From assembly GCF_014652455.1 (NCBI RefSeq), contig NZ_BMYV01000001.1, positions 62,001 through 126,000 of the forward strand: a stretch of DNA of 64,000 nucleotides, read 5' to 3'. A program made the translations under genes and the position numbers. The stretch's first letter is position 1; every line of letters starts with the position of its first letter. Positions 16,874 to 34,094 of the stretch are shown here, piece by piece. The DNA comes from Litorimonas cladophorae. Lineage in GTDB: Bacteria > Pseudomonadota > Alphaproteobacteria > Caulobacterales > Maricaulaceae. The notes under the pieces are model-generated. The model did not search any database and was not told the origin of the DNA. It worked only from the letters and a program-made list of their open reading frames with translations.

Positions 16874-17499
16874 TTAAAATCCTTCGTAACGGACTTGAAC
16901 TTTACCTGTGGCTTGATCGCCGCCCATTGCGGCGCTGCCACCGAAGGACCAATTATCATTGCCCCGAACAGCGAGTGTTGCGCCAAAGCCGAACTCATCA
17001 CCGAAGACGGCGGCACCACCTGCGGCTGACCATTTTGCATTTGGAGACAGATACATATCGGGCAGAGCAGCGACCGCAGCCAATCCAGACTCGACGTCTT
17101 GCAGGCTTTGGAAGGACTTCTCGATCGCGGCGGTGTTGGCGTCGATTTTGTTGAACGCTTGACCGATCAGGACTTTGTTGGACTGAATGGCTTTTGTATT
17201 CACGTCAATCGACTGCGCATTAACAGAGATAGAGTTGGCGTTGAACGCGGCCAAACTCTGCTGCGCGGCAATTGAATTGCGCTGCACAGGGCGGGGCGTA
17301 TTTGTCGGTGCTGTACCGATATTCGTCCCAATGGTCTCATTCGATACGCCCGTGATTTGCGTGCCACCCGCACCGTCAAAGGACGTGCCGCTGGCCGTCG
17401 TTGGCGCGCTCGGATCAGAGAGTTCTGTCAGGCCCGCTTCGAACTCCGCGCCACCGTCCACAATTGGCGCACGCGATGTGGCGACAGGGGTTGAGGATA
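16874..17499 (-). repeat. Long direct repeat, copy 2 (adhesin 3' end)
   Basis: Second copy of the 626-base segment described at 12067-12692, coding for the linker and YadA anchor of adhesin 2. Its few substitutions are mostly silent or conservative (for example AIRG to AVRG near the end), which indicates recent duplication or ongoing gene conversion. Confidence 0.85.
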
Positions 17500-20074
17500 C
17501 TGTCTTGGTCGTGCCCGGATTAGAGGTCTTGGTCGACGGAACGGATCCCGTTGTTCCCAGATTACCATCGTCATCCGTCGTGACATATTGCACATTGCCA
17601 GTTTGATTGGCCGTACCTCTGGCACTGCCGCCAAGGCCGAGACCGGGTAGTGTATAAACCGTGATTCCCGTGCCGAACATCATCTGGTTCGCCATTGTCG
17701 TCATAGAGCCTGCACCAATCGCGGTTGAGCCGTTATAGCTTGCATTGGCGCTATCACCCAAAGCCACGGATGTGTTGCCAGAGGCCTGCGCATCCGCACC
17801 GAGCGCTGTTGAGCTAAAGCCCGTCGCGTCTGCGCCTTCACCAATCGCTGTCGCATCATTCTTATCCGCGACGGAACCAGCCCCTAAAGCCGTTGCAGCA
17901 ATCCCCGATGCAGACGCATCTTGCCCGACAGCGGTGGCGTTTGTGTTCGTGGCTTCGGAGTCATCGCCTAAAGCCGAAGAGGCTGCGCCAGAAGCGAGGG
18001 CATCTGCACCCAACGCCGTCGCGCTGAAGTTCGTCGCATCCGCCATTTGGCCGATGGCTGTGGCATCCGTTGAACTCGCAATAGCTTCACCGCCAATGGC
18101 AATGCCGTTGACGCCTGTGGCTTCCGCCCCAGTTCCGATTGCGACGGCATTCACGGCCGTGGCTTCCGCACCGTCCGTGACGAGGATGCCGCCAACCTCT
18201 GTGTAAGTCGCTCCGCCCAGCGCGACCGCGCCGACAGCAGAGGCTTGCGCGCCTTCATTGAAGTTCGTTCCGCCACCCAGCGCAAGCGCGCCATCGCGAG
18301 AGGCTTGTGTCCGTCCCCCAATGGCGACGCCATTGCGCGCGGTTGCGGTTGAAGCAAACCCTAACGCAACAGCATTGCTGGAAGATGCCCGCGAAAACGC
18401 GCCCATAGAGAAGGTATGAGAGGCAGAAGCCCGCGCGCTATCACCAATGGAAATGGCGTTAATTCCTGTCGCCTCGGCCTTTACGCCAATCGCGATGGCA
18501 TCCACTCGATCCGCCCGTGTCCCAGTGCCCAACGCGATGGCATTATCGCCCTCACTTTGTGCAGCCGACGTCTGTTGGTCCCCAATCATATCATATGTGG
18601 CACCGCCAATTGCGATCGCACCTTGGCCCGCAGAATACGCACCTTCATCAAATCTTCCACCGCCAATCGCGATGCCGCTAGAGGTATTCGTTGCTGCATT
18701 TGACCCTAAAGCTGTCGAATAAGTGCCATCTGCAATGCTGCCGAAGCCCAAGGCGGCGGACCCTTCTGCGGCGAAACTAAGGGAGCCGACGGCTGTCGAA
18801 TAAGTGCCATCTGCAATGCTATTGCTGCCTAAGGCTGTAGCGTTTGCACCTATTGCAGATGCAGATAACCCAACCGCCACGGCCTCAGCGCCCTCTACTG
18901 ACGCTTGCCGTCCTACAGCCACGCTTCCTGGACCTGACGCAAAGCTTTCAAACCCGATGGCAATAGCGGAGCTGCCCCCTGCGTTGGCAAATGCACCAGC
19001 CGCGATTGAATCATTGCCCCCTGCGTTGGCAAATGCACCAGCCGCGATTGAATCATTGCCCGCCGCGACGGTCACGTACCCCAATGCGACAGCTCGATCA
19101 CCGCCTGCCGCCGCGTCGTGGCCCACCGCTGTCGCACCGTCAGCTGTCGCCTGTGCAAAGCCCCCCAACGCTGTCGTACCTTCAGCTGTCGCATTCGCCG
19201 AGACGCCCACGGCCATCGCATCGAGTTGATTAGCGACGGAGGTCTGACCAATCGCGATAGATTGTGTGCCTGCGGCATCCGAAGAGAGGCCAAGCGCGAT
19301 CGCTCCATTCGCGCCGGCCGACGCCAGGGAACCAAGTGCAACCGCAGAATTCCCAACTCCATTCGCGTTTCGTCCCAAGGCAACAGAATCCGTGCCACTC
19401 GAAAGACTATCATGGCCAATCGCGATAGCCCCCGCGGCTGAGGCATTGGCGGCCAACGCGGCGGTATTACCTGAACCAATCGCAATAGACTCCAGTCCCG
19501 TCGCTTGTGCATTTGCTCCGAATGCTACCGACGCGACGCCATCCGCGTTGGCATCGGCGCCAACCGATGTTGCACGCACGCCGCCAACATCGGCGCTCTG
19601 GCCAATGGCGGTACTGTCGATGAAGTCCGCTCTCGCGTTTTCTCCGACGGCGGTGGCCGCAGCCGCAATAGCTCTCGCATCGTCACCGATAGCGGTTGTA
19701 TTGCCACCGGTTGCGCGAGAATCTGCCCCGATCGCTGTTGCGCCATTCCCGCCAGTGGCCTGCGCACCAAACCCTACGGCAGTGCCGTCTGTGTCATTCG
19801 CGAGCGAACCTGCACCCAAGGCTGTCGAAAAAGAACCCGATGCGATAGCGCCGACCCCGCAGGCTAACAGGTTATCGCCTCCTGAGGAATCGGCCCCCCC
19901 ATCCGTATCGACATTTGAATCTGCGTTACCGTCGTTATTCGTGTCCAACAGACAATCCTCAGCATAGGCCGACCCCGCCGAGACAAATGTCAGCGGAAGC
20001 GAAAGCCCCATCGCGACGAGCAGTCCCGTCGCCGTGGTTGAAATGAGAGAAGTTTTGAAATTTGTGTTAGACAT
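16874..20074 (-). CDS. YadA-like trimeric autotransporter adhesin 2
   Basis: 1066 residues. The plan is as in adhesin 1: signal peptide ending SAYAED, the CLLDTNNDGNAD Asp-rich stretch, a long head of 14-residue S-x-A-x-G repeats, a Thr/Ser/Pro linker, and a YadA anchor ending RYEGF. The head repeats differ from adhesin 1 almost throughout, while the ends are nearly identical, so the two proteins share export and anchoring parts but display different surfaces. The ATG has GGGGA eight bases upstream. A tandem 42-base repeat lies inside the head (18973-19056). The long upstream gap separates it from the GTA activators. Confidence 0.92.
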   Translation of the reverse strand: MSNTNFKTSLISTTATGLLVAMGLSLPLTFVSAGSAYAEDCLLDTNNDGNADSNVDTDGGADSSGGDNLLACGVGAIASGSFSTALGAGSLANDTDGTAVGFGAQATGGNGATAIGADSRATGGNTTAIGDDARAIAAAATAVGENARADFIDSTAIGQSADVGGVRATSVGADANADGVASVAFGANAQATGLESIAIGSGNTAALAANASAAGAIAIGHDSLSSGTDSVALGRNANGVGNSAVALGSLASAGANGAIALGLSSDAAGTQSIAIGQTSVANQLDAMAVGVSANATAEGTTALGGFAQATADGATAVGHDAAAGGDRAVALGYVTVAAGNDSIAAGAFANAGGNDSIAAGAFANAGGSSAIAIGFESFASGPGSVAVGRQASVEGAEAVAVGLSASAIGANATALGSNSIADGTYSTAVGSLSFAAEGSAALGFGSIADGTYSTALGSNAATNTSSGIAIGGGRFDEGAYSAGQGAIAIGGATYDMIGDQQTSAAQSEGDNAIALGTGTRADRVDAIAIGVKAEATGINAISIGDSARASASHTFSMGAFSRASSSNAVALGFASTATARNGVAIGGRTQASRDGALALGGGTNFNEGAQASAVGAVALGGATYTEVGGILVTDGAEATAVNAVAIGTGAEATGVNGIAIGGEAIASSTDATAIGQMADATNFSATALGADALASGAASSALGDDSEATNTNATAVGQDASASGIAATALGAGSVADKNDATAIGEGADATGFSSTALGADAQASGNTSVALGDSANASYNGSTAIGAGSMTTMANQMMFGTGITVYTLPGLGLGGSARGTANQTGNVQYVTTDDDGNLGTTGSVPSTKTSNPGTTKTVSSTPVATSRAPIVDGGAEFEAGLTELSDPSAPTTASGTSFDGAGGTQITGVSNETIGTNIGTAPTNTPRPVQRNSIAAQQSLAAFNANSISVNAQSIDVNTKAIQSNKVLIGQAFNKIDANTAAIEKSFQSLQDVESGLAAVAALPDMYLSPNAKWSAAGGAAVFGDEFGFGATLAVRGNDNWSFGGSAAMGGDQATGKVQVRYEGF
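18973..19056 (-). repeat. Perfect 42-bp tandem duplication in the adhesin 2 head
   Basis: Units 18973-19014 and 19015-19056 are identical, adding one 14-residue head repeat (GNDSIAAGAFANAG appears twice). It is in frame and shows that head length changes by slippage or unequal crossing-over. Another short repeated string, GTCGAATAAGTGCCATCTGC, occurs at about 18715 and 18795. Confidence 0.9.
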
Positions 20075-20302: not shown

Positions 20303-20584
20303 CTGCGCCCCAGCATTTTTTACATGAAGATTTGGTAAACGCCAATGGGGTGAATACCCCATTTAATTTGCCAACACAGGCGCAGTGTCCCGCGAGAGGG
20401 GCGCGTCGGTTCCGGCGCATCGAGTCAATTCTGGCTTTAATTTTCCTGTTCAAAGCTCTGATTTCGAGGCCACGCCAAACTCTTTCCCCGCTTATGCGCG
20501 CGGGTGAGGATATTGTGTAGGTGAGGGCGTTCGAACTACTGCACAGGAAAGTAAGTCTTGAATTCAGTGACTTAACACAGATTA

Positions 20585-20599
20585 GAACATAGAGTGAAC
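20585..20599. promoter_or_regulatory. Candidate LexA (SOS) box upstream of gafYZ
   Basis: GAAC-ATAGAGT-GAAC matches exactly the alphaproteobacterial LexA box GAAC-N7-GAAC. It overlaps a possible promoter (TTGAAT at 20558-20563, 17-base spacer, ATTAGA at 20581-20586) and lies 94 bases before the gafY start, a position where a repressor would act. A TTGACT at 20608-20613 follows. This is a sequence match only; eight fixed bases can occur by chance, but the location in front of a GTA activator makes it notable. Confidence 0.55.
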
Positions 20600-20692
20600 A
20601 TCACGCGTTGACTCATTCAAAAGTTAATATAGGAATTTAATCCTCGTATTGGGAGGTGCGGCTATACTGGTCGTCCACCCCAGGAGGACCCT

Positions 20693-21040
20693 ATGCGAAC
20701 ACGCCAAAATAACCCAAATGATATCGCCTTTGCCCGTCTGGCTTTGACCATTGTCGCGCTGGAATTTGGGCAACCCGATCTGTCGCTCGATATCGAAAAG
20801 ACAGGGCCAGACCGACGTCGAGCGATCTTCGTGCGCCAAGTTGCGATCTATGTCGCGCAAACCGTTTTCGATTTAACCGCGACGCGGTTAGGGGAACTTT
20901 TCTCCCGCGATAGATCGACCATCACCCATGCTGTGCGCGTGGTGGAGGACAGCCGCGAGGACCCCGTTTTCAATCGCAAACTGCTCAAGGCCGAAGACGT
21001 TTTGAGCCAGAGCTATGACGCCTTGAGAGCCGCCGCATGA
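20693..21040 (+). CDS. gafY: GafY-like GTA activator (DnaA C-terminal-like DNA-binding protein)
   Basis: 115 residues. Residues about 43-90 resemble DnaA domain IV: RRRAIFVRQVAIYVAQ, then RLGELFSRDRSTITHAVRVV, where DnaA has GGRDHTTVLHA. No ATPase domain is present. In Rhodobacter the GTA activator GafA joins such a domain to a C-terminal DUF6456 part; in Caulobacter the two parts are separate proteins, GafY and GafZ. Here the next gene is DUF6456, overlapping by 4 bases, and the GTA structural genes follow directly. The start has a strong AGGAGGA site five bases upstream. Confidence 0.85.
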   Translation: MRTRQNNPNDIAFARLALTIVALEFGQPDLSLDIEKTGPDRRRAIFVRQVAIYVAQTVFDLTATRLGELFSRDRSTITHAVRVVEDSREDPVFNRKLLKAEDVLSQSYDALRAAA

Positions 21041-21813
21041 GCTTTACCTCGCAACAAACGGCGATGAACCGTGTCGTGCGGGAAATCCATGCCGTCGATG
21101 GTTTGATCGCTCATGCCGCCGAGGGCGCAGAACGTCCCGTTTTTCCCCATCAAGATAAACGCAAACGCCCCGTTATCTGGCTGGAGGAAGTCGGCTTTCT
21201 GTGGCTACGCGGACAAGATGTCATTGAACCGGTGGCGCGTGGATTTATCCTGCGCCCATCTGTGAAGCGTCGACTCAATCAAGCGCGCGATGGGCTGATC
21301 GGTCAACATGAGGTGTTGGAAACGCGAGAGCTTTACTCGCCTGACAATGTGGTGCGCCCTGTCGCGGTGAATACGCGGTCCACGGCGTTGGATCGATTGG
21401 CGCGCAGACCTGGGCAGGAATTAAATAAACGCTGGCTTAGCCCCGCCGAAGTGGAAGCAGGACGTGCGTTGGCGCGTGATTTTCACCGCGCTGGGGAGGG
21501 TCAAATCGGCACGCAAGATTTCACGTCCTCGGGCGTGCAAGGCGGGGACCGCGCGGGCGGGGCGGAACGGGCGATGCTGCACCGCATCACGACGGCAACA
21601 CGACTTCGCACGGCGCGTGAAATTCTCGGAACCGATCTGGCCCCTGGCGTCATTGCGCTCTGCTGTCACGATGAATCACTCGACGTGATTGAACGCACCG
21701 AACGCTGGGCGGCTGGGTCGGGCAAGCAAATCATCAAGTTGGGTCTTGCACGGTTAGTGACCTTATATGGCACCGAGGCCGGCGTGCGTTCAGGGGGCGC
21801 GTCCGCCTCATAG
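21037..21813 (+). CDS. gafZ: GafZ-like GTA regulator (DUF6456)
   Basis: 258 residues. The C-terminal part (about 110-250) has the DUF6456 pattern: ALDRLARRPGQE, WLSPAEVEAGRALARDF, then LAPGVIALCCHDESLDVIERTERW and SGKQIIKLGLARLVTLYG. The N-terminal 100 residues contain a GFLWLRGQDV segment and a basic stretch, as in GafA-type proteins. The Caulobacter homologue works with GafY and lets RNA polymerase read through terminators in the GTA cluster. Coupled to gafY by ATGA overlap. A GGGG...CCCC hairpin at 21815-21830 lies just after the stop, before terS. Confidence 0.85.
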   Translation: MSFTSQQTAMNRVVREIHAVDGLIAHAAEGAERPVFPHQDKRKRPVIWLEEVGFLWLRGQDVIEPVARGFILRPSVKRRLNQARDGLIGQHEVLETRELYSPDNVVRPVAVNTRSTALDRLARRPGQELNKRWLSPAEVEAGRALARDFHRAGEGQIGTQDFTSSGVQGGDRAGGAERAMLHRITTATRLRTAREILGTDLAPGVIALCCHDESLDVIERTERWAAGSGKQIIKLGLARLVTLYGTEAGVRSGGASAS

Positions 21814-21841
21814 CGGGGTTTGCTCCCCGCTTATAAAAAAC

Positions 21842-21876
21842 ATGATCCGCGCCCTTGGCGGGTCGGGGTAAACTGG
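21842..21876 (+). promoter_or_regulatory. GTA promoter-like motif, copy 1 (before terS)
   Basis: ATGATCCGCGCCCT, four bases, GGG, two bases, GG, one base, GTAAACTGG. The same arrangement recurs at 25600-25634 before the portal gene (25 of 35 positions identical). The last part (TAAACT) would serve as a -10 element with transcription starting at or next to the terS ATG at 21881, which has no ribosome-binding site. Candidate GafY-dependent promoter. Confidence 0.5.
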
Positions 21877-21880
21877 TCCC

Positions 21881-22243
21881 ATGACAGATACACCCAAAAC
21901 AAAACTCGATCGTTTGACCCGTACAGAGGCCGCCATACAGGCCAAGTTGGATGGGCTCCTGCAAAGTCCAGACACGGATGATAACCCGCCCGACAAATGG
22001 GCGCGATCCATTTCGACGCTCATGAAAGCCCTAGACGATACGGCGCAGCAGCGCGCCGCATTAGAGGCCGACATCGCCGCCAAGACCCACACGCGGTATG
22101 AAGATATGCCACCGCCAACCCCGGAAGATGAGGCGCGTTTCTATGAACGTTTTAGAAAACTTGTCGGTGAGATCACTGACGCTCGCGGAGAAGAAAGAGG
22201 TGTGGAAGAAACTCTCGGGGTGGGACCGCGCGCAATTTCTTAG
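21881..22243 (+). CDS. GTA small terminase subunit (TerS, g1-like)
   Basis: 120 residues, mostly helical and charged. By position just before and overlapping terL, and by size, it corresponds to RcGTA gene g1, shown to be the small terminase. Visible features are an N-terminal helix (LDRLTRTEAAIQAKLDGLL), a middle helix with RSISTLMKALDDTAQQRAALE, and a C-terminal segment. No classical DNA-binding motif is seen, fitting the non-specific packaging of GTAs. There is no Shine-Dalgarno; the preceding promoter-like motif suggests a leaderless message. Its last 100 bases overlap terL in another frame. Confidence 0.75.
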   Translation: MTDTPKTKLDRLTRTEAAIQAKLDGLLQSPDTDDNPPDKWARSISTLMKALDDTAQQRAALEADIAAKTHTRYEDMPPPTPEDEARFYERFRKLVGEITDARGEERGVEETLGVGPRAIS

Positions 22244-23456
22244 GCTCTGGTCTTTTTGGGCGCGCGGCAATCAACATGCGCCCGTCAAGGATTGGCTGAT
22301 CTGGCTGATCCTCGGCGGACGGGGCGCGGGCAAAACCCGCACAGGGGCCGAATGGATTGCCCAACAAGTCAAATCAGGCGCGCGCCACATTGCGCTCGTC
22401 GGGACTTCATTTGCAGAGGCCCGCGAAGTAATGTTGGAAGGCGAAAGCGGCTTGCTCAACATTGGGCATCCGTCGGAGCGTCCGAAATTCATCGCGTCGC
22501 GCCGTCGCTTGGAATGGCCAAATGGCGCGGTGGGGCACCTATATTCCGCCCATGATCCTGATGGCTTGCGTGGCGGTCAATTTGATGCGGCGTGGGCGGA
22601 TGAATTTTGCGCATGGGCCTATCCCGAAGAGACGCTATCTAATTTACGACTGGCCCTGCGCCTGACGCCGCGATCGGGTGAAAAGCCACGCTTGGTCATC
22701 ACGACAACGCCGCGTCCGTCGCCGTCACTTCTGGCCCTGAAATCTGCAACAGGTGTCTCGACATCTCACATTCGGACCCGCGAAAATGCGCGCCATTTGG
22801 CGCCGGGGTTTTTGGACGCGATGGAGGACAGCTATGGCGGATCACCGCTGGGGCAGCAGGAATTGGAAGGCGAAATCTTGACGGACCTCCCAGGGGCGTT
22901 GTGGAAACTTTCGACGATTGCAAAACAACGACAGACCGAAACGCCTGCGCTGGAACGTATTGTTGTCGCCATCGACCCGCCCGCAACATCTGGCCCTCAC
23001 GCCGATGCCTGCGGGTTGATTGTGGCAGGTGTTGCCAAAGGCAGCGCTTATGTGCTGGAAGACGCCACGTTGAAAAATGCGCCGCCTGAAATTTGGGCCG
23101 AAAAAGTGGTCGAGTTATTTCAGTCTTATCAAGCCGATTGCGTCATTGCGGAAGGCAATCAAGGCGGGGAAATGGTCGAAGCCGTCTTGCGCCAAGTCGA
23201 TCCGAATTTACCCATCCGTCGTGTGCATGCGCGGCGTAGCAAACAAACCCGGGCCGAACCTATTGCCCATCTCTATACGCGCGGGCGGGTCTTTCATGTG
23301 GGAAGATTTGACGCGCTGGAGGCGCAAATGTGTCAAATGGGGTCGAGTCTGGGCGGCGGCACTCGGGCCTCACCTGACCGCGTCGATGCGCTTGTCTGGG
23401 CGGTACATGCGCTATTGATGAAGGGGAGGGATGACCCGCGGGTCAGGCAGATTTGA
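22143..23456 (+). CDS. GTA large terminase (TerL, g2)
   Basis: 437 residues from ATG 22143. The ATPase part has Walker A GGRGAGKT (about residues 58-65) and a Walker B-like AAWADEF; the nuclease part begins with the acidic strand RIVVAIDPPATSG and ends with SPDRVDALVWAVHAL, whose Asp is a metal ligand in terminases. This motor packages random host DNA into GTA particles. The start at 22143 gives the usual N-terminus (LSGWDRAQFLRLW follows); the ATG at 22098 would add 15 atypical residues. It overlaps terS by about 100 bases and is followed by a foreign gene set rather than by the portal gene. Confidence 0.92.
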   Translation: MNVLENLSVRSLTLAEKKEVWKKLSGWDRAQFLRLWSFWARGNQHAPVKDWLIWLILGGRGAGKTRTGAEWIAQQVKSGARHIALVGTSFAEAREVMLEGESGLLNIGHPSERPKFIASRRRLEWPNGAVGHLYSAHDPDGLRGGQFDAAWADEFCAWAYPEETLSNLRLALRLTPRSGEKPRLVITTTPRPSPSLLALKSATGVSTSHIRTRENARHLAPGFLDAMEDSYGGSPLGQQELEGEILTDLPGALWKLSTIAKQRQTETPALERIVVAIDPPATSGPHADACGLIVAGVAKGSAYVLEDATLKNAPPEIWAEKVVELFQSYQADCVIAEGNQGGEMVEAVLRQVDPNLPIRRVHARRSKQTRAEPIAHLYTRGRVFHVGRFDALEAQMCQMGSSLGGGTRASPDRVDALVWAVHALLMKGRDDPRVRQI

Positions 23457-23675: not shown

Positions 23676-24407
23676 ATGCCTAAAAATTTGAGCGAAGCCT
23701 TAAAGGCCGCAAAAACAAAGAGAAATGTTCTCTCCAAACAAATTATTTGGGAAAGCGGTGTCAGCAAAAGTCAATTTTATCGCATAATAAATGGCGAGGA
23801 GGCGCCGAGCCCTGAGACGAAGCTAAAAATTTGTGAAGCTCTCGGAATTGAGTCGGACACATTCGATACGCTTCAAGACAACTCTCAACCCGGCGACCAA
23901 AGTTTAGATGACCAAAATTCAGAGGGTGGGAGCAAGAGGGCTTGGATATTATCCGCCGTCGCGGCCTCCGCCGTGGCCGTCCTCGCCATTTTCTTAGTCA
24001 CGATAGATCGTCCTGCATCTGCTGCTTTGGAGCCACGCGTAGACGTTGCGGAGCTTGAGGACAGCACACTCTTCATCAAAGACGTGACAATCCCCGATGG
24101 AACGTCAATTCCGATCAACACGACGTTTGAGAAAATATGGCGCGTGAAAAATACGGGGAAGGTGGTTTGGAAAGATCGCTACCTTCAACGCATGACGCCC
24201 GCCACCAGCCTCATTTGTTCATCCCCCAGTCGCGTGCCCATCCCTGAAACCCAGCCCGGGGAGGTGATCGATATCGCGGTGACATTCACAACGCCCTATC
24301 TACCGGGGTCCTGTCGCACAGATTGGAAAACGACGGATAAAGACGGGAACGTCTATTTCCCCGACATGCATGGATTATACTCGATCGTTGTCGTTACGGC
24401 GGAATAG
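23676..24407 (+). CDS. HTH - membrane helix - NBR1-type Ig-like domain protein
   Basis: 243 residues in three parts. Residues about 1-65 form a lambda-repressor-like helix-turn-helix (SKSQFYRIINGEEAPSPET), one membrane helix lies at about 89-110, and residues about 130-243 match the NBR1-type Ig-like fold, with the characteristic W-x-V-x-N-T-G-x-x-x-W (WRVKNTGKVVW), a late tryptophan (TDWKTTDKDG) and a cysteine pair near 181 and 213. The arrangement would put the Ig domain in the periplasm and the HTH in the cytoplasm, a one-component signalling layout. It sits between terL and portal, where GTA clusters normally have no such gene. Function unknown. Confidence 0.7.
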   Translation: MPKNLSEALKAAKTKRNVLSKQIIWESGVSKSQFYRIINGEEAPSPETKLKICEALGIESDTFDTLQDNSQPGDQSLDDQNSEGGSKRAWILSAVAASAVAVLAIFLVTIDRPASAALEPRVDVAELEDSTLFIKDVTIPDGTSIPINTTFEKIWRVKNTGKVVWKDRYLQRMTPATSLICSSPSRVPIPETQPGEVIDIAVTFTTPYLPGSCRTDWKTTDKDGNVYFPDMHGLYSIVVVTAE

Positions 24408-24517
24408 GTGGTCGCAACATATATGGGTGAAAATAGCCCCCGCAAGCGAGATATGAACAGCCATAGGCGTAACGCTAACTTTATGAGACATTGGCGCCAT
24501 AAATTTCTTTCTATCTA

Positions 24518-24549
24518 CACCCGCTTAACGTTTTCCACCTAAGCGGGTG
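24518..24549 (+). promoter_or_regulatory. Hairpin covering the translation start of the DUF2726 gene
   Basis: CACCCGCTTA (24518-24527) and TAAGCGGGTG (24540-24549) form a perfect 10-bp stem two bases before the ATG at 24552. The only purine-rich stretch that could bind the ribosome (GCGGGTGAA) is inside the stem, so translation is probably controlled by this structure, or it is a terminator-like end of the upstream unit. Confidence 0.5.
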
Positions 24550-24551
24550 AA

Positions 24552-25076
24552 ATGGAATTTCTCGTTATCATAATTATCGCAGTCTTTTGCCTGCTCTTTT
24601 TAAACATTGTCATCGGCAAGAAAAAGTCACTTGATAAACCTCCTGCGATCAAGCCCGTTGACGCGAACCAATTCGCGAACTTCACCGCCGCCCCGTCCCT
24701 TTTTGTGAATGCCTCTGAAAAAGCATTCTTCTATGCTTTGCTTTGCCATCTTCCTCCTGGCATCTATCCGCAATCAAAGGTGCGGCTGGAAGACATTATC
24801 GGCATTCGAAAAGGCTTGCCTTATAAGGAAAGCCAATCGCTTCGCGGGCGCATCAAATCTCGGCACATTGACTTTCTTATAATCGATATTGAGGGACGTT
24901 CGCGGCTTGCGATTGAGCTGGATGGTAAAAGCCACACGTCCAAACGGGCCATAGAAAATGACAAAGTGAAGACAGCGCTTTTCATGGCGGCGGGAATCCC
25001 CTTACGGCGTATCCGTGTTGGCGAAAATTTTGACCATATTGCCGCCACAATCGGCGCGGAATTAAAGCTCCATTAA
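24552..25076 (+). CDS. DUF2726 domain protein, membrane anchored
   Basis: 174 residues. One N-terminal membrane helix (about 3-21) is followed by a DUF2726 domain (about 50-170): ASEKAFFYALLCHLP, YPQSKVRLEDI, RIKSRHIDFLIID, LAIELDGKSH, then AGIPLRRIRV. DUF2726 resembles the PD-(D/E)xK nuclease fold (D in RHIDF, E-x-D in IELDGKSH), though activity has not been shown for most members. Inserted with its neighbours between terL and portal. It could act on DNA or RNA at the membrane; this is inference from fold only. Confidence 0.75.
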   Translation: MEFLVIIIIAVFCLLFLNIVIGKKKSLDKPPAIKPVDANQFANFTAAPSLFVNASEKAFFYALLCHLPPGIYPQSKVRLEDIIGIRKGLPYKESQSLRGRIKSRHIDFLIIDIEGRSRLAIELDGKSHTSKRAIENDKVKTALFMAAGIPLRRIRVGENFDHIAATIGAELKLH

Positions 25077-25120
25077 CTACGATAGATTTGTATAAGGCAT
25101 CTTTTGTGGGAATGAGAAAA

Positions 25121-25558
25121 ATGTTGAACTGGTTGACGGGTCGTCGAAAATCGAAGCTGGAGGACCAGTTGGCAAAGACGGATGCAAAACTCGCTTTGAT
25201 GAATGCGCAAATGGCGGCGGAGCTGATCCGCTTGGCAGGGCAGACCGATGACCTAGAACCTTTGGCACAGGCCGAAGACGCCATCCTTTCGGCGCGCAAA
25301 TATTACGCCTATGAGAATACGCCCGAGGAAATTGGCTTAGTTCAAGCCGCGCTGGGCGACATGTTGCTTAAACTGGGCCGCGCTAAATCCGATACAGATG
25401 CGATCACGCGCGCGCGAACCGCCTATCGCGCGGCGATTACCTTGGCGTCTATGCATGGTGATGAAGAGGCGCGGCATGACCTCCGCGATAAGGTGAAGAT
25501 CGTTGAAAGCCTCTTGGGACACCATCCGAAAACTCCATCCCTGTTTAAGGTCGCATAA
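25121..25558 (+). CDS. TPR-like helical protein
   Basis: 145 residues from ATG 25121 (GGGA eight bases upstream; ATG 25112 abuts the site and TTG 25088 has none). It is soluble and helical, with repeats that look like tetratricopeptide units: LEPLAQAEDAILSARKYY, IGLVQAALGDMLLKLGR and AITRARTAYRAAITLASM. The N-terminus is basic (MLNWLTGRRKSK). Probably a protein-interaction module; partner unknown. It follows DUF2726 after 44 bases and precedes the portal gene, making the last gene of the inserted set. Confidence 0.65.
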   Translation: MLNWLTGRRKSKLEDQLAKTDAKLALMNAQMAAELIRLAGQTDDLEPLAQAEDAILSARKYYAYENTPEEIGLVQAALGDMLLKLGRAKSDTDAITRARTAYRAAITLASMHGDEEARHDLRDKVKIVESLLGHHPKTPSLFKVA

Positions 25559-25679: not shown

Positions 25680-26885
25680 ATGTTTAACCCCTTTCGTCGG
25701 TCCGCCGACCCTATTGTCGTGCCAGAACGCAAGTCTGACGGGGCAATGGCCGACAGCGGAGCTGCGCGCCCGCTAATCGCGACGCAATTGCGGCATGGCG
25801 CGAAGTCGACCGCGACGGATTATGCCACGCTTTGCCGCGAAGGGTTTGCCCGCAATCCTATCGCCCATCGTTGTGTGCGCCTGATCGCCGAGAGCGCCGC
25901 TTCTGTCCCGCTACAGACAAATGACGCGCAGGTGGCCCGCGTATTGAGCCGTGGCCTGCCAGGGTCGAGCGCGGTTGAAACATTTGAGGCGTTTTATGGC
26001 TATCTCCAAGTTGGCGGGAATGGCTTTCTGGAAACGGTCTTAAATGGCGACGCGCCGATTGCGCTGGTCGCTCATCGCCCTGACACAGTGCATGTCGGTG
26101 CCAATCGCCAAGGTGGCATGACGGGATGGGAACAGCGGGTGGAAGGCCGACGTCGGCACTTTCCGCGTGATCTGTCGACAGGTCGCTGCGCGCTCTATCA
26201 TATGCGCCTGTTCAACCCCGTCGATGACTGCCACGGATTATCGCCCTTGGCGGCGGCGGCGCAGGCCGTTGACTTGCACAATCGCGGCGGGGTGTGGGCG
26301 AAGGCGCTGCTGGAAAATTCCGCTCGTCCCAGCGGCGCGCTGGTCCATGCCCCGCAATCAGGGGAGCGCCTGACGGACGCTCAGTTCGAACGGTTGAAAT
26401 CGGAGCTTGAGCAAAGTTTCACAGGCCCCCATCAAGCGGGTCGCCCGATGGTGTTGGAAGGCGGGTTGGACTGGAAGTCTATGTCGCTCTCGCCCGCCGA
26501 TATGGACTTCACCCAATTACGCCGCGAAGCCGCGCGCGAAATTGCGCTGGCCTTTGGCGTACCGCCCATGCTGTTGGGCCTGCCAGGGGATAATAGTTAC
26601 GCGAATTACCGCGAGGCCAACCAAGCGTTTTGGCGGCAGACAATTATCCCACTGGTCGCGAAAACAGCGACGGGGCTGCAAGGCTGGCTGGGCGCATTTT
26701 TTGGAGATGATCTGCGGATTACCCCCGACATCGACAAGGTTCCCGCATTGGCAGAAGAACGCGCCGTGCTCTGGAAACGCCTGTCGGACGCCCGTTTCAT
26801 CACGTCAAATGAAGCCCGAAACATTGCGGGATTGATGACCGATTTAGACTGCGATGACCCTGTTCATTCGGGGGTTCGCTCATGA
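25680..26885 (+). CDS. GTA portal protein (HK97 family, g3)
   Basis: 401 residues of the HK97-type portal family. Recognisable stretches are NPIAHRCVRLIAESAASVPL, FYGYLQVGGNGFLE, PLAAAAQAVDLHNRG, DMDFTQLRREAAREIALAFGVP and LGLPGDNSYANYREANQAFW. The protein forms the dodecameric ring at one capsid vertex through which DNA is packaged and leaves. The start has AAGG about eight bases upstream. It overlaps g3.5 by 4 bases. Length agrees with RcGTA g3. Confidence 0.93.
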   Translation: MFNPFRRSADPIVVPERKSDGAMADSGAARPLIATQLRHGAKSTATDYATLCREGFARNPIAHRCVRLIAESAASVPLQTNDAQVARVLSRGLPGSSAVETFEAFYGYLQVGGNGFLETVLNGDAPIALVAHRPDTVHVGANRQGGMTGWEQRVEGRRRHFPRDLSTGRCALYHMRLFNPVDDCHGLSPLAAAAQAVDLHNRGGVWAKALLENSARPSGALVHAPQSGERLTDAQFERLKSELEQSFTGPHQAGRPMVLEGGLDWKSMSLSPADMDFTQLRREAAREIALAFGVPPMLLGLPGDNSYANYREANQAFWRQTIIPLVAKTATGLQGWLGAFFGDDLRITPDIDKVPALAEERAVLWKRLSDARFITSNEARNIAGLMTDLDCDDPVHSGVRS

Positions 26886-27133
26886 CCGCTCATACTGACC
26901 AGCCGTTACGCATCGACCGCACGCTGACGTTTGGTTTGATCGTCACGATCTTGATTCAAACGGCGAGTGGTTTGGTTTGGGCGGGGGCTGCGGGGGCGCG
27001 GCTTTCGGCCTTAGAATCTCAAATCGCGCTGACCCCAGGGATCTCGGAACGACTTGCCCGTGTAGAAGGCCAAACGATTCATATCGAACAAAGCCTGATG
27101 CGCATCGAACGGAGGTTGGGCCATGTTGAATGA
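26882..27133 (+). CDS. GTA g3.5-like small membrane protein
   Basis: 83 residues: a membrane helix (about 17-38, FGLIVTILIQTASGLVWAGA) and a C-terminal coiled coil (ISERLARVEGQTIHIEQSL, RIERRLGHVE). It matches by size and position the small gene g3.5 between portal and protease in RcGTA, whose role is not settled. It overlaps both neighbours (4 bases with portal, 11 with protease), so it belongs to the coupled unit. Confidence 0.75.
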   Translation: MTAHTDQPLRIDRTLTFGLIVTILIQTASGLVWAGAAGARLSALESQIALTPGISERLARVEGQTIHIEQSLMRIERRLGHVE

Positions 27134-27578
27134 TCTCCCAATCGCGGGATATGCCAGCCGATTTGCGGAAGCCGACCTGTCAGACGATATCGTCCAACGC
27201 GGTGCCTTTAGTGCCAGCCTTTTATCGCGCGCCGATCCGTTTCCCATGTTGTTCGGGCATCAAACGCACCAACCGATTGGCGTTTGGGACCGCGTGGTTG
27301 AGGATGACATCGGCCTATATGTTGAAGGCCGCATTCTGGTGGGTTCGGAGTTGTCAGCGTCGACTGCGCGATTGGTCCAGACCCGCGCGGTAGGCGGATT
27401 ATCCATTGGATACCGCACCCGTCGCGCCACGCCGCGCGCCGCGCGCGGGCGCATTCTAACTGAAATTGATCTTTGGGAGGTGTCTGTCGTCGCCTTCCCG
27501 ATGCTGCGTTCTGCGCGGATCACACAGATTGGCGACACCCCCAATTTTGACGCAACACACCACAGGAGATTTGCGTGA
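27123..27578 (+). CDS. GTA prohead protease (HK97 family, g4)
   Basis: 151 residues of the HK97 prohead protease family. GYASRFAEADLSDDIVQRGAF is the typical start, MLFGHQTHQPIG carries the catalytic histidine, and VGGLSIGYR holds the serine (S in LSIGY). The last strand reads LWEVSVVAFPML. It processes capsid protein during head maturation. Length is shorter than phage HK97 protease but normal for GTAs. It overlaps the capsid gene by 4 bases. Confidence 0.9.
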   Translation: MLNDLPIAGYASRFAEADLSDDIVQRGAFSASLLSRADPFPMLFGHQTHQPIGVWDRVVEDDIGLYVEGRILVGSELSASTARLVQTRAVGGLSIGYRTRRATPRAARGRILTEIDLWEVSVVAFPMLRSARITQIGDTPNFDATHHRRFA

Positions 27579-28753
27579 CTGCTAAACTTGAAACGAAAAC
27601 AACAGGGCCGAGCTTAAACCAAGCTCAAGTCGATTTTGCCTCGACCTTCGCCGCTTTCCGCGATGCCAATGATATGCGGCTGGCCGAGATCGAAGCTAAA
27701 TCCAGTGTCGACCCATTGCTGAGCGAAAAGGTCGAGCGATTGAACACCGCGTTGGACGCGCAAACCCGCCGCATCGAAAATCTGACATTGGCGGGGGCGA
27801 CATCTGCCTTTGGCGCGGGTCAAACCCTGGAAGGCAAATCCGCCAATCAAACCGCATGGGATAATTTCATCCGCACGGGTGATGCCTCGGCCCTGACCAC
27901 CGGTGTGGAAGGCAAGTCTATCGCCTCAGTCAATGGCGACGGCAGTTTGATTGCGCCCGTCGAAACGGAAACGCGCATTGATGCGGTGCTGGCCGAAACT
28001 TCCCCGATGCGACGTCTGGCCACCGTGCGCACCATCGGGGCCAGCGCCTTCCGCAAACCCGTCAGCACATCTGGTGCGCAATCGGGATGGGCGGGAGAGA
28101 CCGACGCCCGTCTGGAAACCGAAGCCCCAACGCTGGAGCTGATCGACTTCCCAACGGGTGAGCTCTACGCTATGCCCGCCGCGACCCAAGCCCTGCTGGA
28201 TGACAGCGTTGCCGATGTCGATGCGTGGTTAGCCGAAGAAGTGCGTGACGTCTTCGCGGCGCAGGAAACGGCGGCCTTCATCAGTGGCGATGGGGTGAAT
28301 AAACCACGAGGCTTTATCAATTCACCAGACCTCGGTGTGTTGGAACCTGAGGATTTTGACACGGATGCCTTGATCGATCTGATCTATGCGCCGCAGTCGC
28401 GATATCGCGCCAATGCCAGCTTTGTCATGAACCGCCGCACCATTAATACGGTGCGTAAATTCAAAGACGCCGATGGCAATTACATCTGGCAACCCTCGCT
28501 CTCTGCGGGCGCGCCGTCGACCTTGCTCGGCTATCCGCTGGTTGAAATGGAAGACATGCCAGACATCGGCAGCGGCGTTGCGTCAGTCGCCTTTGGTGAT
28601 TTCCGTCGCGGTTACCTGATTGCGGACCGTCAAGGTGTGCGCGTGCTACGCGATCCATACTCCGCCAAACCCTACGTGCTGTTCTACACGACAAAACGTG
28701 TGGGCGGCGGGGTGCAAGATTCGGAGGCGATTAAATTGCTGAAGATCGCGTAG
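27575..28753 (+). CDS. GTA major capsid protein (HK97 fold, g5)
   Basis: 392 residues from a GTG at 27575 with AGGAGA six bases upstream. The first 100 residues are helical (delta domain, removed in maturation); the capsid fold begins at about residue 115 with SVNGDGSLIAPVETETRI. Further marks are LLDDSVADVDAWLAEEV, FISGDGVNKPRGF, WQPSLSAGAPSTLLGYPL and YSAKPYVLFYTTKRVGGG. It forms the small oblate head of the GTA. The gene ends a block; the next GTA gene is about 1 kb further on, past an inserted gene on the other strand. Confidence 0.94.
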   Translation: MTAKLETKTTGPSLNQAQVDFASTFAAFRDANDMRLAEIEAKSSVDPLLSEKVERLNTALDAQTRRIENLTLAGATSAFGAGQTLEGKSANQTAWDNFIRTGDASALTTGVEGKSIASVNGDGSLIAPVETETRIDAVLAETSPMRRLATVRTIGASAFRKPVSTSGAQSGWAGETDARLETEAPTLELIDFPTGELYAMPAATQALLDDSVADVDAWLAEEVRDVFAAQETAAFISGDGVNKPRGFINSPDLGVLEPEDFDTDALIDLIYAPQSRYRANASFVMNRRTINTVRKFKDADGNYIWQPSLSAGAPSTLLGYPLVEMEDMPDIGSGVASVAFGDFRRGYLIADRQGVRVLRDPYSAKPYVLFYTTKRVGGGVQDSEAIKLLKIA

Positions 28754-28913
28754 GGTTTATGGGGGACTGATACCGCACGGGTGAATACGCCACTCGATTA
28801 TTCAGGGATATGCCTTCGGGTGACAGCTGAATTTTCGGGTGGTTTTTGGGGGGAGAGATGCTTGCGGTTAGATGGCCTGATTAAACGTCAAAATGCGATC
28901 ATTCTTGTGAATA

Positions 28914-29558
28914 TTATTTTGTAAATTTTTTCCACCAAGGTTTTGTTTTCTGCCAAGTGATGTTTTTAACACTTTCATACTCTGTTTCGTAAGCGTCAGT
29001 AATTTCCTCTAGTTCATCAAGTGAAAGACAATCCTGAGGCCTCCCATTGGTCTCATCAGACTGACAGGTCATGAGCCATTTTTTCCAATGGGGGGCCTCA
29101 AGCCAATTTGGGTCGGGCGGATAAGCATGACCGCCAATTTGAACGTCCAAATCTAACTTAAATAAGCTGATTATGGCTCGGTCACTTGCAAGTGAAGAAA
29201 CCATCATGTCAGCATAAAAATCTGACCCGCCGATAGGCTTAACAACGAATAATGTAATGTTACCGAGTGTGACGTCAATTCCGCAACTCGTTTCGGAGAG
29301 CCAGACTTTTGTATTTTTTCTGACGTCTCCTTTTAGTTGTCGAATGACTTCAACTTCCAAATACGTCGAGGTTGGAAAATTGTTTTCGATGCTCGTTACT
29401 GCGTCTGGGTCCCATTTTTTCGCGGTAGCTCTACCCCAGAAGACGGTTTTATCTGAAACGAATTCGCTGGTTTTTATGTCCGGCGGTGGGAAGTCACAAG
29501 CATCCGCAGTAACCGGGTAGCTGAGAAAGCAGAATGCAATAATGAGAAACCATTTCAT
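28914..29558 (-). CDS. Exported protein with TIMP/netrin-like OB-fold pattern
   Basis: 214 residues, on the strand opposite to the GTA genes. A signal peptide (MKWFLIIAFCFLSYPVTADA) precedes CDFPPP. Residues about 35-110 show VFWGRATAKKWD, YLEVEVIRQLKGDVRKN, VWLSETSCGIDVTLGNITL: the pattern of exported TIMP/NTR-like domains (two early Cys, K-G turn, CG-x5-G). The C-terminal half has no assignment and ends very basic (KPWWKKFTK). The gene and its flanks are visibly richer in A+T than the GTA genes, suggesting acquisition. It lies between capsid and g6, a position with no equivalent in RcGTA. Confidence 0.6.
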   Translation of the reverse strand: MKWFLIIAFCFLSYPVTADACDFPPPDIKTSEFVSDKTVFWGRATAKKWDPDAVTSIENNFPTSTYLEVEVIRQLKGDVRKNTKVWLSETSCGIDVTLGNITLFVVKPIGGSDFYADMMVSSLASDRAIISLFKLDLDVQIGGHAYPPDPNWLEAPHWKKWLMTCQSDETNGRPQDCLSLDELEEITDAYETEYESVKNITWQKTKPWWKKFTK

Positions 29559-29645
29559 GTAATATTATTACGTAAAATTGAAGTATGATTCAAGAAATAA
29601 TCGTCAAAACGTGTTTGCCCGCACCTGACATTACTAAGCCCAACT

Positions 29646-29755
29646 GAACCGCTTTACGGTTCGGCCCCCAGTAAAACGACACCTCGTCGTTCCTATCCCA
29701 CCCAACCTGCCTTGTGCATTTCGCGAAAAACGAATTGCACGGAGCGGGTTTTTTT
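29646..29755 (+). terminator. Series of hairpins and T-run before g6
   Basis: Three small hairpins follow each other: GAACCG-CTTTA-CGGTTC (29646-29662), ACGAC-ACCTC-GTCGT (29676-29690) and GTGCATTTCG-loop-CGAATTGCAC (29714-29740, one mismatch). A seven-T run lies at 29749-29755, eight bases after the last stem. The T-run is a little too far for a standard terminator. As GafZ homologues act by antitermination, this could be a regulated stop in front of the late genes. Confidence 0.4.
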
Positions 29756-29778
29756 ATGTCCAAAATTACGGAGCCCCT

Positions 29779-30297
29779 ATGACTTTGACTGACCTTTCTC
29801 CGCCGCCCACGGGTCCCGTGACTTTGGCGGCGGCCAAGACTTTCCTGCGGATTGATCACGCGGATGAAGATGATTTTATCGGCGATCTGATCGATGTGGC
29901 CGCGCGCCAAATCGAAGCGCGTTGCGGGGTGAGTTTGATCACACGTCCGCAACGCCTGTCTAAACCTGCAAATGGAGCTGGGGTCTATCTGAACCGCTAT
30001 CCTGTGGTCTCTATCGAGGCGGTAGAGCGTGACGGGGTCGCATTGCCCATTGACGCCAATCTACGGGCGCGGCCCGTTTTGGTGCGGGTCCAGAGATCAG
30101 GCGATGGCTCTGGCGATGTGCGGGTCGATTTCACGGCAGGGTTCGGCGCAACGCCTGAGGATATTCCGACACCCCTACGCCAAGGTGTGCTGCTCTTGCT
30201 GGCCCATCTCTATGAATATCGAAATGGGGATGGCCCACCGGGTTTTCCGATGATGGTGGATGCGTTGACCCAACCTTATCGCGGAGTGCGGCTATGA
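29779..30297 (+). CDS. GTA head-tail connector (g6, gp6-like)
   Basis: 172 residues. The phage connector pattern (DnaB-like helical bundle, HK97 gp6 family) is seen in VTLAAAKTFLRIDHADEDDFI, LIDVAARQIEARCGVSLI and the C-terminal LRQGVLLLLAHLYEYRNGD. It forms the adaptor ring below the portal. The start follows GGAG by seven bases. It restarts the GTA gene series after the second insertion; all following genes to g15 are closely packed or overlapping. Confidence 0.87.
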   Translation: MTLTDLSPPPTGPVTLAAAKTFLRIDHADEDDFIGDLIDVAARQIEARCGVSLITRPQRLSKPANGAGVYLNRYPVVSIEAVERDGVALPIDANLRARPVLVRVQRSGDGSGDVRVDFTAGFGATPEDIPTPLRQGVLLLLAHLYEYRNGDGPPGFPMMVDALTQPYRGVRL

Positions 30298-30611
30298 TTG
30301 GCCGCATGCGCGCCCGTGTGGGGCTGTATTCACCTGAAACCATTGCCGATGATTTGGGCGGGACCATTACCAGTTGGACGTTCCGCCACGCGATCTGGGC
30401 CGCGATCAAACCCAAGGCGATTTCCGAAACCCGCGAGAATGGCCGTTTGTCTGTCACCCAGACCTATCTTGTCGTCATTCGTTACACGTCGCGATTCCCT
30501 GAGCGGGCGCGTTTGGTCTGGAATGGCCGCATTTTGCGCGTCGTCGCGGCCAGTGACCCCGATACGCGCGGCGAACGCTTGCACCTGATTTGTGAAGAGG
30601 AAAGCCAATGA
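30294..30611 (+). CDS. GTA head closure / head-tail joining protein (g7)
   Basis: 105 residues of the SPP1 gp16-like head closure family: MRARVGLYSPE, TSWTFRHAIWAAIKPK, SVTQTYLVVIRYTSRF, RLVWNGRILRVVAASDPD, RGERLHLICEE. Such proteins close the connector channel after packaging. The ATG at 30294 overlaps the g6 stop; an ATG at 30306 would also fit family length. It overlaps g8 by 4 bases. Confidence 0.85.
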   Translation: MIGRMRARVGLYSPETIADDLGGTITSWTFRHAIWAAIKPKAISETRENGRLSVTQTYLVVIRYTSRFPERARLVWNGRILRVVAASDPDTRGERLHLICEEESQ

Positions 30612-31063
30612 GTGGCTCTGTAAATATCGCCGCACAGGCGGAAGACTTGGCGAGAGCGGTCCATGTGGTGCTGCGGGATAATCTGGATATTCAATATGCG
30701 TTGGGCGGCACAAATGGCGAGCCGCCGCGCCTCTATGATGCCGCACCCGAAGACCCTGTCTATCCCTATCTGACCTATGGCGCGATGCGGTCCGAAGATA
30801 TTAGCGCGGATGAGACGCCGCTGTCCTCACACCAAATAACGCTGCATCTCTGGTCGCGATATACAGGACGAGCGGAGGTGTTATCCCTGCTGAGCCGTGT
30901 GGCGGCGGCTTTGGATGCAACCTCGCTGTCGGGGGTCGGGCCGCTCTCTGTGCGCAGTTCTAATCCGATCTATTCTGACGTGTTGAGAGCAGCCGATGGG
31001 CGAACCCATCACGGCTTGTTGCGCATGTCGATGACGACCCAAGAACTGGAGGTGAACTTATGA
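30608..31063 (+). CDS. GTA tail terminator-like protein (g8, DUF3168)
   Basis: 151 residues of the DUF3168 family, which includes phage tail terminators. Marks are DNLDIQYALGG, PVYPYLTYGAMRSEDIS, SSHQITLHLWSRYTGRAEVLSL and HGLLRMSMTTQE. It would cap the tail tube and join it to the head. It overlaps neighbouring genes by 4 bases on both sides. Confidence 0.86.
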   Translation: MSGSVNIAAQAEDLARAVHVVLRDNLDIQYALGGTNGEPPRLYDAAPEDPVYPYLTYGAMRSEDISADETPLSSHQITLHLWSRYTGRAEVLSLLSRVAAALDATSLSGVGPLSVRSSNPIYSDVLRAADGRTHHGLLRMSMTTQELEVNL

Positions 31064-31467
31064 GCGCCCAACGTGGCAGCGAAATGCTGCTGAAAATCAA
31101 AACAGGTGAGGGCGACTATGTCACCGTCGCAGGGCTACGGACGAAAACCCTGCGCCTAAACGCGCGGCCCGTCGATGTGACAGACACCGCGTCCCAAGGC
31201 TGGAAAGAACTTCTGCCAGGCGCGGGTATTCGCACGGCCGAGATCTCGGGGACGGGCGTGTTTCGCGATGCTGTGTCAGATACGCTGATCCGCAGCGCCT
31301 TTTTTGACCAATCCGCGCAGGACTGTCGGTTCATCATTCCGGGCTTTGGGCAGATTGACGGTGTGTTCCTGATAACAGGGTTGAATTACGCGGGGGCCTA
31401 TAATGGTGAAGCGCAATTCGAGTTGAGTTTGGCCAGCGCTGCCCTGCCAGAATTTACCGCCCTATGA
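31060..31467 (+). CDS. GTA major tail tube protein (g9, TP901-1 family)
   Basis: 135 residues of the phage TP901-1-type major tail protein family. Visible are SEMLLKIKTGEGDYVTVAGL, RLNARPVDVTDTASQGWKEL, AEISGTGVFRD, and GQIDGVFLITGLNYAGAYNG. It stacks into the tail tube. Overlaps of 4 bases on either side. The length is typical of GTAs and siphophages with short tails. Confidence 0.9.
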   Translation: MSAQRGSEMLLKIKTGEGDYVTVAGLRTKTLRLNARPVDVTDTASQGWKELLPGAGIRTAEISGTGVFRDAVSDTLIRSAFFDQSAQDCRFIIPGFGQIDGVFLITGLNYAGAYNGEAQFELSLASAALPEFTAL

Positions 31468-31742
31468 ATGCGTATCGCCTCGGGGACCGGCAGGTCATCA
31501 TTGCAGGTGTGGAGACGCGCTTGCGATTGACGCTGTCTGGTTTGGCCGAGATCACGTCTGCTCTTGGGACGGATACGCCATCGGTGCTGGCCGCGCGATT
31601 GCGGGAAGCCACGGATGCAGATTGGAATATCGTCCTGCGGGCGATGGCACAGCCGCGTCCGAAAACGGGTCTAACCCAGGCCGATTTAGGAGAGATTTTA
31701 CCTGCCCTCAGCGCCGTCATTGCCGACGGATTAAACCCATGA
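31464..31742 (+). CDS. GTA tail assembly chaperone-like protein (g10)
   Basis: 92 residues. It matches GTA g10 proteins (GTA_TAC family): RLGDRQVIIAGVETRLRLTL, GLAEITSALGTDTPSVLAARL, LTQADLGEILPALSAVIADG. Together with the following g10.1 it is in the place where siphophages code tail assembly chaperones that guide tape-measure folding. Its stop overlaps the g10.1 ATG by 4 bases. Confidence 0.85.
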   Translation: MNAYRLGDRQVIIAGVETRLRLTLSGLAEITSALGTDTPSVLAARLREATDADWNIVLRAMAQPRPKTGLTQADLGEILPALSAVIADGLNP

Positions 31743-31963
31743 CGGAGACCGACAGTTCTTGGCCATTTGATGTTTGGCTGCGGATCGCCGTGAAGCGATT
31801 TGGGCTTTCCCCCTCAGAGTTTTGGAGCCTGCCATTGCGCGACTGGTTGGTCCTCATGTCTGACGCCAAACCCGCAACTCTGGACCGCACGCGGTTGGAA
31901 GATTTGATGAAGGTCTTTCCTGATCTAACCTCTGAAGGAGATCAAAATGAAGTCGGAAAATAA
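31739..31963 (+). CDS. GTA g10.1, phage tail assembly chaperone (TAC_2 type)
   Basis: 74 residues from ATG 31739, which overlaps the g10 stop. The pattern WPFDVWLRIAVKRFGLSPSE and FWSLPLRDWLVLM is that of the small TAC_2 proteins found between g10 and g11 in GTAs. The reading frame is open further upstream (to 31622) but that part is out of frame with g10 and not family-like. Its last 17 bases overlap the start of the tape-measure gene. Confidence 0.85.
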   Translation: MTETDSSWPFDVWLRIAVKRFGLSPSEFWSLPLRDWLVLMSDAKPATLDRTRLEDLMKVFPDLTSEGDQNEVGK

Positions 31964-32372
31964 CGTTATCAGCAATGCCGCCGATGCGCTTGATGCCTTC
32001 GCAAAAGGCCCCGCAACAGATGCCGCGAATGAGCTGGCAGATGTGTTTGAAATCGCGGGGGGTCGCATTGCGAATTCGCTCGAACGCGCGGCGCAAACGG
32101 GGGCGCTCTCGTTCAATGATTTGGCAGAATCGATCCTCAATGACTTCGCGCGATTGGCCGTGTCTGAATTGATTACGGCACCGCTGGAAGGACTCGTTTC
32201 TAGCCTCACCCAATCCATCGGGCAGGCAGCAGGGGCCTCAAAAACTGCGCCCGTGACGGTCAATCTGAACCTGGGGAATGGGGCGTCAAAACCGACAGGA
32301 CCACAACCATCGACAACCCAAATCGCGTCCCAAGTATCGCGGGCATTACAGCACGCACAATCCCGAAATTAG
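31947..32372 (+). CDS. Short GTA tape-measure protein (g11)
   Basis: 141 residues, matching the short GTA tape measure family: NAADALDAFAKGPATDAANELAD as a start, EIAGGRIANSLERAAQTGALSF, and a hydrophobic helix DFARLAVSELITAPLEGL, with a Ser/Thr/Gln-rich end. RcGTA g11 is about 219 residues, so this one is shorter and would set an even shorter tail, if tail length follows it. The start has GAAGGAG seven bases upstream. Confidence 0.8.
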   Translation: MKSENNVISNAADALDAFAKGPATDAANELADVFEIAGGRIANSLERAAQTGALSFNDLAESILNDFARLAVSELITAPLEGLVSSLTQSIGQAAGASKTAPVTVNLNLGNGASKPTGPQPSTTQIASQVSRALQHAQSRN

Positions 32373-32383
32373 AGAGTTGAATT

Positions 32384-34091: not shown

Positions 34092-34094
34092 ATT

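Follow-up and report, generated by a model that had tools for sequence, protein, structure and literature searches.

A candidate LexA box in front of the gene transfer agent activator genes gafYZ of Litorimonas cladophorae and its close relatives

Gene transfer agents (GTAs) are domesticated phages that move host DNA between cells, and those of Caulobacter crescentus help cells survive DNA damage. To our knowledge the natural trigger of GTA production is an open question, and the physiological signal that relieves the repressor RogA in C. crescentus is unclear. The locus described here, which lies in a window of 64,000 nucleotides from the genome of Litorimonas cladophorae, raises the question of whether the genes for the GTA activators, gafY and gafZ, could be controlled directly by LexA, which represses the DNA-damage response of bacteria.

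The two genes lie on the plus strand and encode a DnaA domain IV-like activator of 115 aa (gafY, 20693-21040; Pfam Bac_DnaA_C, 7.6e-09) and a DUF6456 protein of 258 aa (gafZ, 21037-21813; Pfam DUF6456, 7.4e-22), with a 4-base overlap between them. The names gafY and gafZ used in the original prediction are right, as the DnaA-like and DUF6456 genes are adjacent and gafZ is the sole DUF6456 match in the genome. They are followed on the same strand by a g1-like gene (21881-22243), recognized from its position and its conservation in relatives with no Pfam match, the GTA large terminase gene g2 (22098-23456; Terminase_6N/6C) and the rest of the GTA cluster (25680-37709; Pfam and PHROGs). The latter region includes genes for the portal, prohead protease, capsid, head-tail adaptor, tail completion and tail tube proteins, as well as a short tape-measure-like protein, a DUF2460 protein, a hub protein, an NlpC/P60 protein and a large tail protein. 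By Pfam and PHROGs the structural cluster g1-g15 is intact, with not every small gene assigned to a family. The gafYZ pair was found directly ahead of g1 and the terminase in all 14 genomes of the genus in which this arrangement was testable; genus g7 provided one further case, while no terminase was found within the 1.5 kb fetched beyond gafYZ in other genera. A LexA box before gafY would thus head the GTA cluster in this genus, and the comparison with a prophage made at the outset is a fair one, since gafYZ stands at the head of a cluster with intact head and tail genes.

The GTA cluster has an insertion between the terminase and portal genes (23676-25558), which encodes a DUF2726 protein and a helix-turn-helix protein bearing an NBR1-like Ig domain (N_BRCA1_IG, 9e-19). 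A hairpin without a T run, AGCGGGG-TTTG-CTCCCCGCT, lies between gafZ and g1 (21814-21850) and may act as an attenuator or belong to a second promoter region. Upstream of gafY, the minus strand carries a 1066-aa repeat-rich adhesin-like open reading frame (16874-20074) at the place taken in some relatives, among them G013 and G016, by a PAS_5 gene.

The sequence GAACATAGAGTGAAC at 20585-20599 on the plus strand is an exact GAAC-N7-GAAC, the alphaproteobacterial SOS box that had been claimed for this site, and 93 bases separate the end of this core from the gafY ATG at 20693. Taken with its flanks, the box GAACATAGAGTGAACAT (20585-20601, plus strand), predicted from its motif, its conservation and a matrix trained on SOS boxes, has the form GAACA-N6-GAACAT. 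This is a perfect fit to the Caulobacter LexA consensus (T/A)TGTTC(N6)TGTTC, as quoted in PMC13384398, which reads GAACA-N6-GAACA(A/T) on the opposite strand. A chance match would be suggested by the behavior of the bare 8-base pattern, which is no commoner in the 3.02-Mb genome than its reversed control (101 and 108 occurrences respectively). In the window it occurs 5 times against 2.15 expected. As neither window nor genome is enriched, the bare count was dropped as evidence. In contrast, the extended motif GAACA-N6-GAACAW is found 11 times in the genome against 2 for the reversed control, with the gafY box among the 11; summed across the 18 genomes of the genus, the counts are 148 and 18.

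When the fetchable exact GAAC-N7-GAAC matches of the genome were compared in position with the open reading frames, exact boxes were found to precede lexA, recA, the gene for DNA polymerase IV (dinB), ruvC and the divergent uvrA/ssb pair, as well as an RmuC-like gene (rmuC) and the genes for YifB/ComM, a radical-SAM repair protein (rSAM-UDG) and the replicative polymerase alpha subunit. The box of lexA itself, GAACATCCATAGAAC, is situated 52 bases ahead of the start of the gene, whose product combines LexA_DNA_bind and Peptidase_S24 domains, and in the genus 13 of the 15 lexA loci retrieved have the same motif ahead of the gene. The presence of exact boxes before lexA, recA and other repair genes implies that this organism uses the usual alphaproteobacterial LexA box. 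With a scoring matrix trained on eight DNA-repair boxes, from which the gafY box was left out, the latter ranked first of 96 at 23.5 bits; the boxes of lexA and recA, each scored with itself left out of the training, reached 18.6 and 15.2 bits respectively. Further exact boxes in the same genome lie before genes for a FAN1-like nuclease, a C-5 cytosine methylase and a DUF5710 protein (L105 1501, L118 1475 and L136 1549), which are likely to be SOS genes of the genus.

Of the 18 genomes of the genus, 16 proved to have a gafY ortholog, and 8 of these 16 loci carry the exact box. Seven of the eight (G000, G013, G012, G011, G016, G009 and G008) make up a single clade (support 1.000), all of whose members have the box; the eighth, G010, pairs in the tree with the box-free G005. 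The presence of the box in close relatives, which the original prediction had proposed as a check, was therefore observed throughout the nearest clade (7/7) and in one further species, in each case exactly and in the same place. Conservation was scored on sequences aligned with the box as anchor, since MAFFT had set the G010 box in the wrong position. In this alignment all eight half-site columns are invariant across the eight loci, whereas pairs of sequences differ at 55% of positions in the spacer, 65% in the 5' flank and 52% in the 3' flank. Within the seven-member clade 8/8 half-site columns are invariant as against 1/37 columns of the spacer and 5' flank (p about 4e-8, with columns treated as independent). 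The half-sites have thus stayed constant in flanks that are nearly saturated with change, and the box is kept while the gene upstream of gafY varies between species. The fixed position in eight species whose spacers and flanks have diverged, together with the enrichment of the extended motif and the first rank by the SOS-trained matrix, argues that the gafY box is more than a chance match, an explanation to which we would give hardly any weight. The conservation in the nearest clade and the likeness to the genome's own SOS boxes, including that of lexA, likewise support the initial identification of the site as a candidate LexA box.

A conserved site could nevertheless serve a protein other than LexA, most plausibly GafY acting on its own promoter, or some other regulator that recognizes a direct repeat of GAAC, in which case the likeness to SOS boxes would be incidental. 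GafY of C. crescentus does bind its own promoter (PMC9632790), and no consensus is known for it. However, GafY, unlike the box, occurs across the whole genus and family, the element mutated in studies of GafY in C. crescentus (ACTATG) is unlike the box, and the box matches both the LexA consensus and the genome's SOS boxes down to the AW flank, so we regard this explanation as improbable. In our estimation 20585-20601 is probably a functional LexA operator, and gafYZ a member of the SOS regulon under the joint control of LexA and RogA.

The patchy distribution of the box bears on this proposal of a LexA operator. No box was found at gafY in seven of the 16 loci of the genus (G001, G002, G005, G007, G004, G017 and G006), and G015 has a reversed copy. 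Outside the genus the box occurs within 200 bases of gafY in 3 of 80 upstream regions sampled from the family (G084, G097 and G099), where composition-matched 4-mers used as a control gave a mean of 0.36 and a maximum of 4, and in 1 of 40 gafY upstream regions sampled from four other families of the order. Independent gains in G084, G097 and G099 are not claimed, three of 80 being too few against a control maximum of 4. Absence from most other members of the genus and almost all other genera counts against a LexA operator, as does the contrast between G010 and its box-free sister G005, and indicates that gafYZ needs no such box in general. Given that it is missing from the rest of the genus, bar the one reversed copy, and from nearly all other genera, the predicted operator is a lineage-specific addition kept under selection and not a general feature of gafYZ promoters. 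In G004 (L045), which is box-free at gafY, gafY is preceded by a PAS_5 gene, and a full-consensus LexA box GAACAGCCCGCGAACAT lies about 100 bases upstream of that gene and 703 bases before the RogA-type operator.

The promoter region itself contains further conserved elements on the plus strand. Upstream of the box is an IHF-like site, ATTCAGTGACTTA (WATCARNNNNTTR with one mismatch; 20562-20574), assigned from its conservation and the role of IHF in C. crescentus, whose gafYZ promoter is bound and activated by IHF (PMC11150451). With at most one mismatch this site recurs at -69 to -71 from the core of the RogA-type operator in 13 of the 16 loci of the genus, and it is perfect in G008 and G007. 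A TTGACT (20608-20613) that begins 8 bases downstream of the box and is conserved in aligned relatives is a possible -35 element; TATACT (20663-20668), also conserved in aligned relatives, may be the -10 of an activator-dependent promoter, and the sequence AGGAGG (20682-20687) provides a ribosome-binding site. The original prediction had the box overlapping a possible promoter; it may do so, but this was not confirmed, as a sigma-70 promoter scan before gafY called none. A GANTC (CcrM-type) site, GACTC at 20610-20614, overlaps the TTGACT in all seven members of the box-bearing clade, and is found nearby in some box-free members; this is a possible cell-cycle input. Full CtrA sites (TTAA-N7-TTAA) were absent from the scanned gafYZ promoter region in every member of the genus, so that a CtrA-gafA link of the kind known from Rhodobacter capsulatus is not seen here.

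Downstream of the box by 31 bases lies an imperfect palindrome of the form GGA-N6-TCC, AGGAATTTAATCCT (20631-20644, plus strand), whose variant of the motif is GGAATTTAATCC at 20632-20643. C. crescentus RogA binds GGAA-N4-TTCC repeats (PMC9632790), an exact form that is found in other genera and families, and the present palindrome, a predicted RogA-type operator, fits these repeats of the known gafYZ repressor. A palindrome of this type precedes gafY at all 16 loci of the genus and in nearly all of the 80 genomes sampled elsewhere in the family. Beyond the family it occurs in the majority of genomes sampled from two families and in about half of those from a third. It is thus the conserved center of the gafYZ promoter, older and far more widespread than the LexA box, and the candidate LexA box, placed between the IHF-like site and the RogA-type operator, sits inside this older promoter. 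In the eight box-bearing genomes the box is 41-47 bases upstream of the palindrome. In a survey of 137 genomes from 19 genera of the family, the composite of box and RogA-type operator was found only at gafY, once per genome, and in these eight genomes alone, with zero control hits in the 137 genomes.

With a putative RogA operator at this distance, LexA would not be the only lock on the promoter. It might even be the lesser one, binding the box with a small or conditional effect on GTA production and fine-tuning basal expression while RogA dominates. Control of this promoter in C. crescentus is known to be by RogA and not by LexA (PMC9632790), which is also a point against a LexA operator as such, and deletion of rogA alone there raises gafY expression about 350-fold (PMC11150451). 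The near-universal occurrence of the RogA-type operator in the family, and its frequency in three other families of the order, fit such a subordinate role for LexA. Against it stand the strong purifying selection on the half-sites of the box and the self-cleavage residues retained by the RogA of this genus, through which damage might lift both locks. A subordinate LexA is a possibility that we take seriously but do not favor.

The best candidate for RogA is the second full-length S24 protein of the genome, of 208 aa (G000:C2:250546-250905, L096), encoded by 16 of the genus's 18 genomes; no LexA box was found upstream of rogA. The Caulobacter-like f3 genomes tested have one strong ortholog each, and that of the closed genome G266 (213 aa, at 85 kb) is RogA-like, in that its lack of the catalytic Ser and Lys agrees with published RogA. 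The copies of the genus, in contrast, retain in all 16 cases the G-D-S-M motif and the MAKEL Lys, as well as an A-G where LexA is cleaved; the Ala-Gly was aligned by eye, as the program had put a gap there. With these residues in place the RogA of this genus may itself be cleavable. Among other genomes, the Ser is missing from RogA orthologs of Caulobacter-like genomes, some of which also lack the Lys, and Ser only is missing in G112, from another genus.

From this arrangement we infer that LexA binds and represses, that damage induces expression and what each element of the promoter does, and the following mechanism is offered in that sense. In undamaged cells LexA on the box, between the IHF-like site and TTGACT, would keep the gafYZ promoter from being activated, by blocking either the activation assisted by IHF and GafY or RNA polymerase. 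DNA damage would lead to RecA filaments and thereby to self-cleavage of LexA, so that the box would be vacated and transcription of gafYZ permitted. As LexA would act on top of the older repressor RogA, the promoter would read two locks, and GafY and GafZ would be made after LexA cleavage if RogA were lifted too; the two proteins would then switch on the GTA cluster directly downstream, as GafYZ do in C. crescentus. A more speculative extension, which we put forward with considerable reserve, is that two damage-sensitive repressors meet at this promoter, the host LexA and a RogA whose Ser-Lys pair and Ala-Gly bond allow RecA-stimulated self-cleavage, making the GTA an SOS-inducible domesticated prophage whose release would supply repair templates to neighboring cells.

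The proposed control resembles the RogA-GafYZ-IHF system of CcGTA in C. crescentus (PMC9632790, PMC11150451) in that gafYZ is a split GafA with the GTA cluster as its target, and in the RogA-type inverted repeat at the core promoter with an IHF-like site upstream. It differs in the addition of a LexA box to the gafYZ promoter, the location of gafYZ directly before the GTA cluster, and the Ser/Lys pair and Ala-Gly bond kept by the RogA ortholog. In R. capsulatus LexA likewise influences GTA production, indirectly via cckA and CtrA phosphorylation according to Kuchinski et al. 2016, as relayed in PMC6363796 and PMC9638019, whereas here the site stands before the activator genes themselves. A LexA site tied to GTA genes has also been predicted in silico in Dinoroseobacter shibae, at the GTA cluster before Dshi_2167/2168, with none reported for gafA in the accessible parts of that paper (PMC6473078). 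The prediction there relied on a loose matrix with no test of conservation, while the present site at the gafYZ promoter is conserved between species. The phages GIL01 and CTX use the host LexA for their lytic switch (reviewed in PMC9437464), and here too a phage-like element would have an activator or lytic gene controlled by a host LexA site; unlike these phages the GTA does not self-replicate, and the site would serve a decision of the host to lyse and share DNA. No report of a LexA site at gafA or gafYZ was found in the literature searched, a provisional result for a search with subscription papers mostly outside it and some sources accessible in part.

If LexA acts at its conserved site before the activator genes, this would constitute a specific and testable trigger for a GTA, one that fits the benefit of GTAs in surviving DNA damage, and box-bearing and box-free sister species allow a direct comparison. 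These observations suggest that the GTA particles of this group of Caulobacterales may be freed from repression upon DNA damage in the manner of a prophage, and that in a single lineage a domesticated phage may have held on to, or regained, a damage switch of the prophage type.
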